In this document: positions 48,996-52,515 of the stretch, piece after piece | How the letters are laid out: the number at the start of each line of letters is the position of its first letter | Numbering within the stretch: the stretch's first letter is position 1 | Origin: Opitutaceae bacterium EW11 | GTDB lineage: Bacteria > Verrucomicrobiota > Verrucomicrobiia > Opitutales > Opitutaceae | Direction of reading: 5' to 3' | DNA: 64,000 nt | Assembly (NCBI GenBank): GCA_003054665.1 | Contig: QAYY01000022.1 | Span: 124,001 to 188,000 of the forward strand | The notes under the pieces: model-generated | What the model was told of the DNA's origin: nothing | The model's input: the letters and a program-made list of their open reading frames with translations, nothing else | Databases searched by the model: none | Made by a program: the position numbers and the translations under genes

Positions 48996-49619
48996 ATGCT
49001 TCTGCTCTCGGTCATTGATGGAATGCGCGTTATCAAGGAGGCCGGCTTGCTGGCCTACCCGCTGGGTCTCTGTTCCGTGGTCGCGGTGTTTATCATCTGC
49101 GAGCGCAGTTTCGCTCTTCGAAACGCCGCGATCGTTCCGGCGGACCTGACGGATTCCGTGCTGCAGGGGCGTACGGTTTCGGGCGGTCAGCACTCCGCTC
49201 TCGGCCGAATCATCAGTTTCGTGGAGCGCCATCCCGGAGATGACGACGGCGCCAAAGCCTATGCGCGACTCGAGATCATGAAGATGGAGCGCGGGGTGAG
49301 TTACCTCGACACCATCTACACGGGCGCGCCGCTGATCGGATTGATCGGTACGGTGTCCGGATTGCTGGCGGCGTTCTCGGTCATCGATCCGCAGACACGC
49401 ATGCCCGACCCGGTGAAGTTCACGGAAAGCGTCGGCTACGCCCTTTCCGCGACGCTCATCGGTCTGGTTATCGCGGTCATCGCTCTTGTCGGGAACGGTT
49501 ATCTTCAGCGCCGGATCGACCATCACGCGGCGCGGCTCGACGTTTTGCTCGAACGCATCCTGGCTCATCACGCCGGCCGCGGGGTGACGAAGATGGAGAG
49601 CAAGGAACTCGTTTCATGA
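48996..49619 (+). CDS. exbB: MotA/TolQ/ExbB proton channel family protein
   Basis: 207 residues with three membrane segments: about 18-35 (LLAYPLGLCSVVAVFIIC), 107-125 (TGAPLIGLIGTVSGLLAAF) and 146-168 (GYALSATLIGLVIAVIALVGNGY). The GLIGTVSGLLAAF segment with its conserved Thr/Gly pattern is the ExbB/TolQ hallmark. With ExbD it uses the proton gradient to drive TonB- or Tol-like energy transfer to the outer membrane. Stop overlaps exbD start by ATGA. No TonB gene is adjacent. Confidence 0.92.
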   Translation: MLLLSVIDGMRVIKEAGLLAYPLGLCSVVAVFIICERSFALRNAAIVPADLTDSVLQGRTVSGGQHSALGRIISFVERHPGDDDGAKAYARLEIMKMERGVSYLDTIYTGAPLIGLIGTVSGLLAAFSVIDPQTRMPDPVKFTESVGYALSATLIGLVIAVIALVGNGYLQRRIDHHAARLDVLLERILAHHAGRGVTKMESKELVS

Positions 49620-50020
49620 GCGGCCTTGGCCTACGGATCAAACGCCACCACCGGCCCGAGCTGCCGCTGGTGCCGCTCATCGACGTGCTGGTGATGCTCG
49701 TGCTTTTTTCGTTCGTGACGATGCGGTTTGCGTCGACCCAGACGCTGAACATCACGCTGCCGAAGGTCGAAACCGCGGGCAAAAACCTCTTCGACGGCAC
49801 CGTGACACTGTCGATCGACAAGGACGGACTGATGCGCTTCAACGGCAAACCCGCGACGCGCGATCAACTCCGTGCGCTGCTTGCCCAAGTGAAGAACATC
49901 AATCGCGACACTCCGGTGCTGATCAGCGCCGACGAGAAGACCCCGCTGGAGCACGTGACCTTCGTGATGGATGTCTGCCGCCAGACAGGCCTGAACAAAT
50001 TCAGCCTGCAGAGTCGGTGA
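49616..50020 (+). CDS. exbD: ExbD/TolR biopolymer transport protein
   Basis: 134 residues: a short cytoplasmic N-terminus, a single membrane helix (about 18-40, LPLVPLIDVLVMLVLFSFVTM) containing the conserved proton-binding Asp in LIDVLVM, and a periplasmic domain ending in a TolR-like fold (DTPVLISADEKTPLEHVTFVMDVCRQTGLNKFSL). Partner of the ExbB-like protein, with four-base overlap. Followed by the 520-base ilv leader region. Confidence 0.93.
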   Translation: MSGLGLRIKRHHRPELPLVPLIDVLVMLVLFSFVTMRFASTQTLNITLPKVETAGKNLFDGTVTLSIDKDGLMRFNGKPATRDQLRALLAQVKNINRDTPVLISADEKTPLEHVTFVMDVCRQTGLNKFSLQSR

Positions 50021-50040: not shown

Positions 50041-50290
50041 CCGCGGAGAAGTTGGAATTTGGAAGTTAGTAGTTGGTGGTTGGACACTCTGGTGCGCATG
50101 GTTCTTGGGCGCCGGTGACGTCGCCAGGGGCGGTTGTCGTGTCTCGCGGAGCGACGACGGGCGCGAAGCCGAAGTCGCTGAACTTCGGAAAAGAGCCCAT
50201 TCTGCTTTGCCTATCGCCGGTAGAGAACACGCGTCGGAGTCGCTTTGTCTTCCCGAATTTCCAAAATGCGAGATTCCAACTTCTCCGCGG
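50041..50290. repeat. 250-bp element with 18-bp perfect terminal inverted repeats
   Basis: The 18 bases at 50041-50058 (ccgcgg...ggaat) recur as an exact reverse complement at 50273-50290, with partial match continuing inward (a TTTGGAA-like word). Inside is a further hairpin, 7-bp stem at 50169-50175/50182-50188. The right end overlaps another perfect stem, 50285-50292/50299-50306. No open frame inside resembles a protein. It lies between exbD and the ilv leader peptide. It may be a small non-autonomous mobile element or a structured 5' region; no target-site duplication was seen. Confidence 0.6.
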
Positions 50291-50357
50291 TGCCTCGACA
50301 CCGCGGCCAAAACTAATTCTTGACGGCGCGCGGCTGTCCTGCCACTCGTCCCGCCAC

Positions 50358-50444
50358 ATGTCCTCCACGTTCGAATCACGCGCATTCGCCGCTCCTGCAA
50401 GCCTCGTCCTTGCGGTCGTCGTCGTTACGAACGTCGCACCGTAG
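50358..50444 (+). CDS. ilvBN operon leader peptide (IvbL-like)
   Basis: 28-residue open frame starting ATG at 50358: MSSTFESRAFAAPASLVLAV continuing VVVTNVAP and a TAG stop at 50442. It has six Val codons, four of them consecutive (V20-V23), plus two Leu, close to the C-terminus. The E. coli ilvBN leader IvbL likewise has Val runs and ends in NAP. The ribosome stalls on the Val codons when charged Val-tRNA is scarce. The frame lies just before the terminator at 50471-50500 and 97 bases before ilvB. Its last codons (GCA CCG TAG) are themselves part of the antiterminator. No Shine-Dalgarno is evident. Confidence 0.82.
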   Translation: MSSTFESRAFAAPASLVLAVVVVTNVAP

Positions 50445-50503
50445 GGCATAAACGAATCCAAAACCCTTTGCCCCTCCGGTGCCAACCGGAGGGGCTTTTT
50501 GTT
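50411..50503 (+). terminator. ilvBN transcription attenuator
   Basis: Three mutually exclusive pairings are visible. Terminator: cccctccggt (50471-50480) with accggagggg (50485-50494), perfect 10 bp, loop gcca, then CTTTTTGTTT. Antiterminator: 50436-50446 (gcaccgtaggg) pairs with 50472-50482 (ccctccggtgc) at 10 of 11 positions, removing the terminator's left arm. Pause hairpin: 50411-50416 with 50438-50443, 6 bp with one G-U. A ribosome stalled at Val codons 50415-50426 would free the antiterminator; one reaching the stop codon would cover it and allow termination. This is classic amino-acid attenuation. Confidence 0.85.
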
Positions 50504-50540
50504 TCTCCGGTGCGGCGCAGAAGGGGCTCCAAAAAACGCC

Positions 50541-52214
50541 ATGAAACTCACCGGAGCCATCATCCTCAGAACCCTGTTGGAACGACAGGGTATCCGCATC
50601 CTCTCGGGCATGCCCGGCGGCGCCAACCTGCCGCTGTACGACGCCCTGCATGAAAGCCACATCCAGCACGTTCTCGCCCGGCACGAACAGGGCGCCGGGT
50701 TCATCGCGCAGGGCCAGGCGCGGGCCACCGGCCGCGCGGCCGTGTGCCTCGCCACGTCCGGCCCCGGGGCGACGAATCTGCTCACCGCCATCGCCGACGC
50801 CCGCCTCGATTCCATCCCCCTCGTGGCGATCACAGGGCAGGTGCCGCAGGCGTTGATCGGTACGGACGCGTTCCAGGAAGTGGATACGTACGGGCTCACC
50901 GTGCCGATCACCAAACACAACTTCCTCGTGCGCTCGGCGCGGGAACTCCTCGAGGTGATTCCGCTCGCCTTCGAGATCGCCGAATCGGGCCGCCCGGGCC
51001 CGGTGGTGGTGGATGTGCCGAAGGATGTGCTGCAGGCGTCGATCGAGGTGTCGTCGTGGCCGGTCCCTGGAAAGGGGCAGCCGACGCCGCCGTGTGCGGA
51101 TGCTCAGATCGACGAACTCGCGCGTCAGCTGCACGCAGCCGCGCGGCCGGTGTTGTACATCGGCGGAGGCGCGGCGAACACGCGCGCCGCGGCGTCGTTG
51201 CGCCAGCTGTCGCAGCGGGAGGACCTTCCCTCGGTGTGCACGTTGATGGGGCTCGGGGTGATGAACGCCGACGCGCCGCTGCACATGGGCATGCTCGGCA
51301 TGCACGGCCTCAAGGGTACCAACGTTCTCCTGAACGAAGCGGACTTCATCTTCGCCATCGGAGCCCGTTTCGACGACCGCGCCACGGGAAAACTCGCGGA
51401 GTTCTGCCCGTCGGCGACGATTGCGCATGTCGACATCGATCCGTCCGAAATCGGCAAGAACAAGAAAGCGCATCTCGCCTTGATCGGCGATGCGGCCGAC
51501 GTGGCGGAGCGCCTCGCGTCCCGAATGGAGACGAAGCGCCGTCCCGAGTGGCGCGATCGAGCGCTCGAACTGAAGCGCCAGTATCCGCTGCATGCGCCGG
51601 CGGACGAGCCGCTGCATCCGGTGAACGTGATCCGCGCCCTCGCTGCCTCGCTGCCGGGCGACAGCATCGTGACGACGGACGTGGGGCAGCACCAGATGTG
51701 GGTGGCGCAGGCGTATCCGTTTTCGGAGCCGCGAACGCTGCAGACGTCGGGCGGCCTCGGCACGATGGGCTTCGGGCTTCCCGCCGCGATCGGAGCCGCA
51801 CTCGCAGCTCCGGGGCGCCGCGGGCTGTGCGTGAGCGGCGACGGTTCGATCCTGATGAACGTCCAGGAACTCGCCACCCTCGCCGAATGGAATCTGCCGG
51901 TGAAGACCGTCATCTTCAACAACGCCAACCTCGGGCTCGTGCGCCAACAGCAACAGCTCTTCTACGGAGGCCGCTACTCGGCGTCCCGGCTGGACAAAGC
52001 TCCGGACTTCGCCGCGCTTGCCCGCGCATTCGGGATTCCCGCCTGCCGGATCGACCGCGACACCGAGGATCCTCTCGCCGCGCTCCGCGAGGCGCTGTCG
52101 GGCGACGGGCCGTGTGTGGTGGATCTTCAGATACACGAGACGACGAACGTGTACCCCATGGTGCCTCCCGGCGCGGCGAACCATCAGACGATCACCGAAC
52201 CTGCGTATGCCTGA
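50541..52214 (+). CDS. ilvB: acetolactate synthase large (catalytic) subunit, AHAS I-like
   Basis: 557-residue ThDP enzyme joining two pyruvates to acetolactate (or pyruvate and 2-ketobutyrate), first common step to Val, Leu and Ile. N-terminal pyrimidine-binding domain with catalytic Glu in LARHEQGAGFIAQG, central FAD domain (IGARFDDRATGKLAEF), C-terminal ThDP motif GDGSILMNVQELATLAEWNLPVKTVIFNNANLG. Starts MKLTGAIILRTLLERQGI. Short small subunit follows, and a Val-rich leader peptide precedes it, as in enterobacterial ilvBN (AHAS I) rather than ilvIH. Expression is predicted to fall when Val/Leu is plentiful through the leader attenuator. Confidence 0.96.
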   Translation: MKLTGAIILRTLLERQGIRILSGMPGGANLPLYDALHESHIQHVLARHEQGAGFIAQGQARATGRAAVCLATSGPGATNLLTAIADARLDSIPLVAITGQVPQALIGTDAFQEVDTYGLTVPITKHNFLVRSARELLEVIPLAFEIAESGRPGPVVVDVPKDVLQASIEVSSWPVPGKGQPTPPCADAQIDELARQLHAAARPVLYIGGGAANTRAAASLRQLSQREDLPSVCTLMGLGVMNADAPLHMGMLGMHGLKGTNVLLNEADFIFAIGARFDDRATGKLAEFCPSATIAHVDIDPSEIGKNKKAHLALIGDAADVAERLASRMETKRRPEWRDRALELKRQYPLHAPADEPLHPVNVIRALAASLPGDSIVTTDVGQHQMWVAQAYPFSEPRTLQTSGGLGTMGFGLPAAIGAALAAPGRRGLCVSGDGSILMNVQELATLAEWNLPVKTVIFNNANLGLVRQQQQLFYGGRYSASRLDKAPDFAALARAFGIPACRIDRDTEDPLAALREALSGDGPCVVDLQIHETTNVYPMVPPGAANHQTITEPAYA

Positions 52215-52515
52215 AAACCATCCTTTCACCATGATTCTCGAACTCCATGTCAGAAACCACCCCGGTGCGCTTTCGCACATCACGGGGCTTTTCGCCCGCC
52301 GTGCCTTCAACCTGGACGCCATCTTCTGCGTCCCTGAACGCGAACGGGACCAGAGCGTCATCTTCCTGCAGGTCGTGGACGAGCCGCGGCTGCCGCAGGT
52401 GGAAAAACAACTCGCGCGCCTGTACGACGTGCTGTCCATCCGCCAGCGTCCGGACCTCGGTTGCGAGTTTTTCGCGAATCTCGCCGCCGCCGCGTCGCCC
52501 GTGTCGACGGCGTAA
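52207..52515 (+). CDS. ilvN: acetolactate synthase small (regulatory) subunit, short IlvN type
   Basis: 102-residue single ACT-domain protein: MILELHVRNHPGALSHITGLFARRAFNLDAIFCVPERERDQ, very like E. coli IlvN (96 aa), and lacking the long C-terminal domain of IlvH-type subunits (about 160 aa). It binds Val for feedback control and stimulates the large subunit. ATG 52207 overlaps the ilvB stop by eight bases; a second ATG at 52231 would remove eight residues. Translationally coupled to ilvB. Confidence 0.93.
   Translation: MPENHPFTMILELHVRNHPGALSHITGLFARRAFNLDAIFCVPERERDQSVIFLQVVDEPRLPQVEKQLARLYDVLSIRQRPDLGCEFFANLAAAASPVSTA

Follow-up and report, generated by a model that had tools for sequence, protein, structure and literature searches.

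Attenuation by leader peptides is a textbook form of regulation in Pseudomonadota and Actinomycetota, and ivbL of E. coli is a proven attenuator. According to a 2010 survey, no leader attenuators had been shown outside these two groups until it presented the His leaders of Firmicutes; the survey weighed transfer against repeated origin, somewhat favoured convergence because sequence similarity was lacking, and did not settle how leader peptides have spread (PMC2965389). Actinobacterial ilvB leaders, including those of C. glutamicum ilvBNC (MTIIRLVVVTARRLP) and M. tuberculosis ilvB1, are covered in three papers (PMC11857589, PMC13236596, PMC1262725). As portrayed there, they share with the locus described here a leader peptide and a terminator before ilvB, and an antiterminator in the worked-out cases, but they carry mixed Ile, Val and Leu codons in a short run, and the likeness considered here is one of plan. 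Acetohydroxyacid synthase I (AHAS I) has been described as gamma-proteobacterial, with Desulfovibrio and one Firmicute as exceptions, and the available text of that account names neither Verrucomicrobia nor Opitutus among its holders (PMC5727371). In open-licence full texts we found no leader-peptide attenuator for Verrucomicrobiota and no Opitutaceae ilvB leader.

The window analysed here is a 64-kb stretch of DNA that an initial annotation, made from the sequence alone, had placed in a probable member of Verrucomicrobiota; this guess was right, the host being a member of Opitutaceae. The same annotation had proposed a Val-dependent attenuator upstream of ilvBN. On the comparative evidence presented below, we give a probability of about 0.92 to the reading that this element would act as a ribosome-mediated transcription attenuator of ilvBN, sensing charged tRNA-Val, a function deduced from sequence analysis.

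AHAS-I genes in the window and in related genomes

The leader precedes ilvB (50541..52214, forward strand), which encodes an AHAS I-type large subunit, and ilvN (52231..52515, forward strand), which encodes a short AHAS I-type small subunit of 94 amino acids. Their best NCBIfam models are NF006016/PRK08155 and NF006036/PRK08178, with scores of 796 bits (under the curated cut-off of 870) and 93.5 bits (under the cut-off of 128), respectively. In the phylogenetic tree, the window IlvB falls inside the AHAS-I clade together with E. coli IlvB (100/100). The same genome contains an AHAS-III-type relative on another contig (43% identity). Across 387 genomes of the phylum, the AHAS-I small-subunit score was 150 for the window, at least 114 in seven genomes and no higher than 66 in the rest; the seven genomes with an AHAS-I small subunit all come from the order of the window. 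Within the family, AHAS-I ilvB (E at most 1e-170) was found in 46 of 252 genomes and 20 of 49 genera, a patchy spread. These results extend the range of AHAS I to Opitutales.

Several of the collected loci have an unusual composition. L123 (G004:C1:2407683-2407937, reverse strand) contains an AHAS-I-type ilvN without ilvB in a 3255-base locus, behind a Val-rich leader ORF (MIRSSAKSAIASAHVSVVVAVVRTGSPSGS); apparently, the gene for the large subunit has dropped out of the module between leader and ilvN. Four others (L011, L020, L021 and L022) have AHAS-I ilvB and a Val leader, with no ilvN seen within 500 bases on the 3' side. The enterobacterial-looking ivbL-ilvBN of L075, from a record titled Chryseobacterium sp. 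18061, probably comes from a mislabelled or mixed assembly.

Leader, antiterminator and terminator

The leader peptide ORF (50358..50444, forward strand) has 28 codons and encodes MSSTFESRAFAAPASLVLAVVVVTNVAP followed by a stop, and its frame is conserved among relatives. As initially annotated, it includes four consecutive Val codons (GTC GTC GTC GTT, the control codons 20-23; 50415..50426, forward strand), and additional Val codons are present at positions 17 and 26. The last leader codons and the stop overlap strand 2 of the antiterminator (GCACCGTAGGG, 50436..50446, forward strand). The intrinsic terminator hairpin 3:4 (50470..50495, forward strand), with the loop GCCA and a T-rich tail (TTTTTGTTT, 50496..50504, forward strand), begins 25 bases 3' of the leader stop. 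The earlier description of a perfect hairpin with a T-run stands, and only its size needed correction, from 10 pairs at 50471-50494 to 11 perfect pairs. Strand 3 (CCCTCCGGTGC, 50472..50482, forward strand) is common to the antiterminator and the terminator. Its pairing with strand 2 was counted by eye as 10 of 11 pairs, in agreement with the initial annotation; when the ORF end was shuffled 300 times, the duplex energy (-20.2 kcal/mol) was reached once. The fold of the region 50340-50510 had a z-score of -2.68 against shuffles.

A 1:2 pause hairpin (50411-50416/50438-50443) had also been proposed. It is possible on paper, but it did not exceed chance in the window, where 157 of 300 shuffles paired segments 1 and 2 as well, and it was absent from both ribosome-free folds, in which the partner of 50412-50416 is 50388-50392.

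The window was scanned on both strands for short ORFs in which at least four of six residues were the same (one of V, I, L, H, W, F, T, C and M) and whose end lay no more than 45 nt from a terminator candidate. With 12 terminator candidates in the window, the Val leader was the sole such arrangement. An Rfam search of the window returned no family at its threshold, including no T-box (RF00230) at the gathering score. A lax search of 50250-50560 gave anti-hemB (16.9 bits) and Magnesium-II (16.8 bits), which are far below their thresholds and were dismissed as chance matches, and again no T-box.

Conservation of the leader in Opitutales

We collected 53 Opitutales AHAS-I loci, 52 of them with upstream sequence (L156 lacks it); L101, which has a partial ilvB and no upstream sequence, had been excluded beforehand. 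Each locus was tested for a Val-rich ORF (four or more Val within six residues) whose end lies no more than 45 nt from a gapless terminator. This arrangement was present at 50 of the 52 loci (45 distinct loci after removal of five duplicates), a result that supports the Val-dependent attenuator of the initial annotation. The two misses were L022, where the leader is present and the terminator imperfect, and L161, which has Ns in the leader. By the same test, no arrangement of this kind was found at 14 AHAS-III-type loci of Opitutales, at seven clostridial AHAS-I loci or at five actinobacterial loci; the enzymes behind the C. glutamicum and M. tuberculosis leaders mentioned above are of the AHAS III type. 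Only seven of 45 enterobacterial-type loci passed, with that of E. coli itself among the misses, because their terminators are bulged, which is a limit of the gapless test; a Val leader is present at each of the 45.

For the RNA analysis, 44 leaders were retained after removal of the duplicates (L106 and L150-L153), L156, L161, L022 and L176 (GTG start) from the 53 loci; the leader start was corrected by hand in L016 and L023, and the terminator in L149. The Val run comprises at least four codons in 39 of the 44 leaders and three in the other five. The terminator lies 14-30 nt 3' of the leader stop and ends 44-163 nt 5' of ilvB. The leaders fall into group 1 (28 leaders), in which IlvB identity to the window is 63-71%, and group 2 (16 leaders), in which it is about 54-56%, and the two groups differ in leader ends and terminators.

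The spacing bears on the proposal that the hairpin merely ends the transcript of the gene before it (49616-50020, presumably ExbD-like) and that the Val ORF is a chance frame. Terminator-like hairpins are not rare, as the 12 candidates in the window show, and a TTG-started frame of 123 codons (50073-50444), in phase with the leader ORF, shares its end at 50444. However, the terminator is located 450 nt past that gene, yet close behind the leader stop in all 44 leaders, and the ORF, the Val run and the 2:3 pairing are conserved, which leaves this proposal very improbable. The TTG-started frame itself is probably not used, since the promoter and the conservation start further 3'.

The leader peptide is more variable outside the Val run. 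In 79 close leader pairs, which are not independent, the difference rates at codon positions 1, 2 and 3 were 0.09, 0.11 and 0.28 for Val codons and 0.18, 0.20 and 0.27 for the other codons. The stop codon of the window sits at the Arg codon of many group-1 leaders (GCACCG TAG GGC versus, for example, GCGCCG CGA GGG). Within group 1, the RNA motif is kept although the reading frame ends at different points.

Covariation and predicted folding

In 28 of 28 group-1 leaders, the antiterminator pairing was stronger than with a shuffled ORF end (mean z -3.7, range -2.16 to -5.56); in the 16 leaders of group 2, the mean z was -2.0 and the weakest -0.86. In the alignment of the 28 group-1 leaders, 88.3% of the cells of the 2:3 stem are paired. 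The covariation of this stem was 0.226 versus 0.143 in shuffles (none of 500 as high) and no more than 0.096 in slid registers, and 18 cells were changed on both sides, against a shuffled mean of 5.0 (none of 500 as high). Four pairs of the 2:3 stem showed changes on both sides, a count that is not unusual (136 of 500 shuffles). The 3:4 stem is 97.3% paired in the same leaders, with 18 two-sided cells and a covariation of 0.206 versus 0.120. Because strand 3 is common to both stems, the three strands 2, 3 and 4 change in concert. Thus, the compensatory changes in the 2:3 and 3:4 stems that had been suggested as a check are present among the relatives. The parts of the attenuator, together with their conservation, covariation and geometry, are direct observations on these leaders.

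The geometry was examined on the assumption that the ribosome covers the RNA to a point 12 nt beyond the first A-site base. With a ribosome on a middle Val codon and RNA up to the loop, 2:3 forms in all 44 leaders (-18.0 kcal/mol in the window), and with a ribosome at the stop, 3:4 is left to form in all 44 (-26.1 kcal/mol in the window). From this arrangement we infer translation of the leader, termination and a response to valine. When valine is plentiful, the ribosome would reach the stop (50442-50444) and cover strand 2; the 3:4 terminator would then form and RNA polymerase would stop near 50500. Under valine shortage, it is on the Val run (codons 20-22) that the ribosome would stall, leaving strand 2 free; 2:3 would form with the polymerase at the loop, and transcription would continue into ilvBN. 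In the full-length leader, 3:4 beats 2:3 even with a stalled ribosome, and antitermination would therefore rest on co-transcriptional kinetics.

In a classic attenuator, 1:2 occupies strand 2, so that an untranslated leader terminates. The 1:2 pause hairpin was above chance in three of 28 leaders of group 1 and in 10 of 16 of group 2. Without a ribosome, the full leader adopts the terminator fold and, with the polymerase at the loop, the 2:3 fold. Since 2:3 forms at the loop and the window has no above-chance 1:2 hairpin, these models suggest that the untranslated leader may read through, unlike the classic default.

Promoter and translation start of the leader

A probable -35 box of the leader promoter, TTGACG (50320..50325, forward strand), has its first base 38 nt 5' of the leader ATG, and the -10-like sequence CACTCG (50343-50348) is weak. 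All 28 group-1 leaders have CTTGA at 38-50 nt 5' of the ATG, and 26 of them have an exact TTGACA, at 39-50 nt, with T-rich columns about 17 nt 3' of this box. If transcription starts at the usual distance from the promoter, a few bases 5' of the ATG, the 5' UTR would comprise roughly 2-15 nt. Leaderless Cys leaders have been reported in mycobacteria, as indicated by a title in the reference list of PMC13236596. A Shine-Dalgarno core (GGAG, GAGG or AGGA) was absent before the leader and before ilvB in group 1 (0/28 each).

This absence points to an unusual translation start and could speak for an element working mainly via translation or via the peptide itself rather than via transcription termination. 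Against such a mode of action stand the terminator with a T-run at 50 of 52 loci, placed in the 44 measured leaders shortly before ilvB, and the variability of the peptide outside the Val run; we consider it very improbable, and transcription attenuation remains the preferred reading.

Directly 5' of the leader promoter, the window contains an inverted pair (50023-50067/50264-50308) with 45-nt arms that are 80% complementary and 196 nt apart. This pair is part of a dispersed palindromic repeat that has 31 further partial matches elsewhere in the genome, several of them arranged as inverted pairs within about 200 bp; the repeat looks like a REP/REPIN family. The genome has two Y1_Tnp (PF01797) matches (L191 and L192), and the repeat arm was not found in these two stretches.

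Comparison with other leaders and descent of the module

The likeness to enterobacterial IvbL that the initial annotation had seen in the peptide is real at the nucleotide level. Like the window, E. coli ivbL has a Val-run leader before an AHAS-I operon (MTTSMLNAKLLPTAPSAAVVVVRVVVVVGNAP in L071), and its leader end, GCGCCG TAG GG, lies just 5' of a GC-rich terminator. In contrast, the Val runs of E. coli comprise four plus five codons versus a single run of four in the window, its terminator arm is CCCCGCCGG versus CCCCTCCGG, enterobacterial terminators are bulged whereas that of the window is perfect, and the predicted 5' UTR of group 1 has just a few bases. A Val leader and terminator were also found before AHAS-I ilvB at nine of 10 betaproteobacterial loci (among L037-L053; L038 fails), at the one locus of Telmatospirillum (L076), and at both loci of a delta-proteobacterium (L099) and Desulfovibrio (L103). 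These leaders have other ends and terminators, and they branch with group 2, not with the group of the window.

T-boxes bind tRNA directly and do not need a leader peptide. Clostridial AHAS-I operons have a T-box (RF00230) in five of seven cases (L092, L095, L096, L105 and L108), ending 46-109 nt before ilvB, whereas the window has no T-box match. In Clostridia, the enzyme and the control layer are the same as in the window, and the sensor is different.

The IlvB tree was built from 63 of 135 translated IlvB proteins. The window is the basal branch of group 1 (97/89), and group 1 stands beside clostridial AHAS I (98/91), while group 2 clusters with Desulfovibrio and its kin, Betaproteobacteria and Enterobacterales (99/95). 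A single Opitutales clade was rejected (AU p 0.0003), leaving two separate Opitutales lineages in the tree. A profile of 53 leaders from outside Opitutales (mostly from Enterobacterales, the others from Betaproteobacteria, one alphaproteobacterium and one deltaproteobacterium) had one significant match in the 64-kb window, at 50404-50506 (E 2.8e-9), and the next match had an E of 1.4. Because any attenuator of this kind would look somewhat alike, 3000 random synthetic attenuators of the same plan were scored as a convergence null. All 16 group-2 leaders scored above every synthetic attenuator, the score of the window was reached by one of the 3000, and 14 of 28 group-1 leaders were in the top 1%.

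Common descent with the proteobacterial leaders is well supported by these scores for group 2. For the window, the attenuator could be real and yet have arisen in Opitutaceae by convergence, not by descent shared with E. coli ivbL. This origin would fit the T-boxes of Clostridia, whose AHAS I forms the sister group of the lineage that includes the window. It would also fit the difference between the terminator arm of group 1 (in the window, CCCCTCCGG) and the proteobacterial CCCCGCCGG, and the 14 of 28 group-1 leaders outside the top 1% of the null. However, the window, basal in group 1, has the leader end GCxCCG TAG GG as in E. coli, its profile score is nearly unmatched among the synthetic attenuators, and group 2 exceeds them all, so we regard convergence as unlikely, though much less so than the two rivals above. 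Since the proteobacterial profile matches this site alone in the window, it is likely that the attenuator shares ancestry with proteobacterial ivbL and came with the AHAS-I genes.

Implications

Elsewhere in the same genome, no terminator candidate was found upstream of the leuA-like (L178-L180), trpE-like (L183 and L184) and ilvB-like (L002 and L003) genes, and a search limited to His-rich short ORFs found none upstream of hisG (L186). As far as these loci go, such attenuation is not a general habit of the genome; the weak matches L181, L182, L185 and L004-L007 lay outside the scan.

The evidence leaves evenly balanced the broader proposal that the Val leader and AHAS-I ilvBN form one module, which would have crossed phyla (Pseudomonadota, Desulfovibrio and its kin, and Opitutales at least twice) with a recognisable RNA sequence kept, and would have been exchanged for a T-box in Clostridia; in the lineage of the window, it would have a nearly leaderless transcript without Shine-Dalgarno or classic pause hairpin. 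The mechanism is known, and because it is a textbook one and no Verrucomicrobiota case was found in print, the novelty lies in the phylum and in the apparent travels of the module. With a Val leader at 45 distinct loci in Verrucomicrobiota, sequence kinship and a resolved enzyme tree, the question of transfer versus convergence becomes testable.
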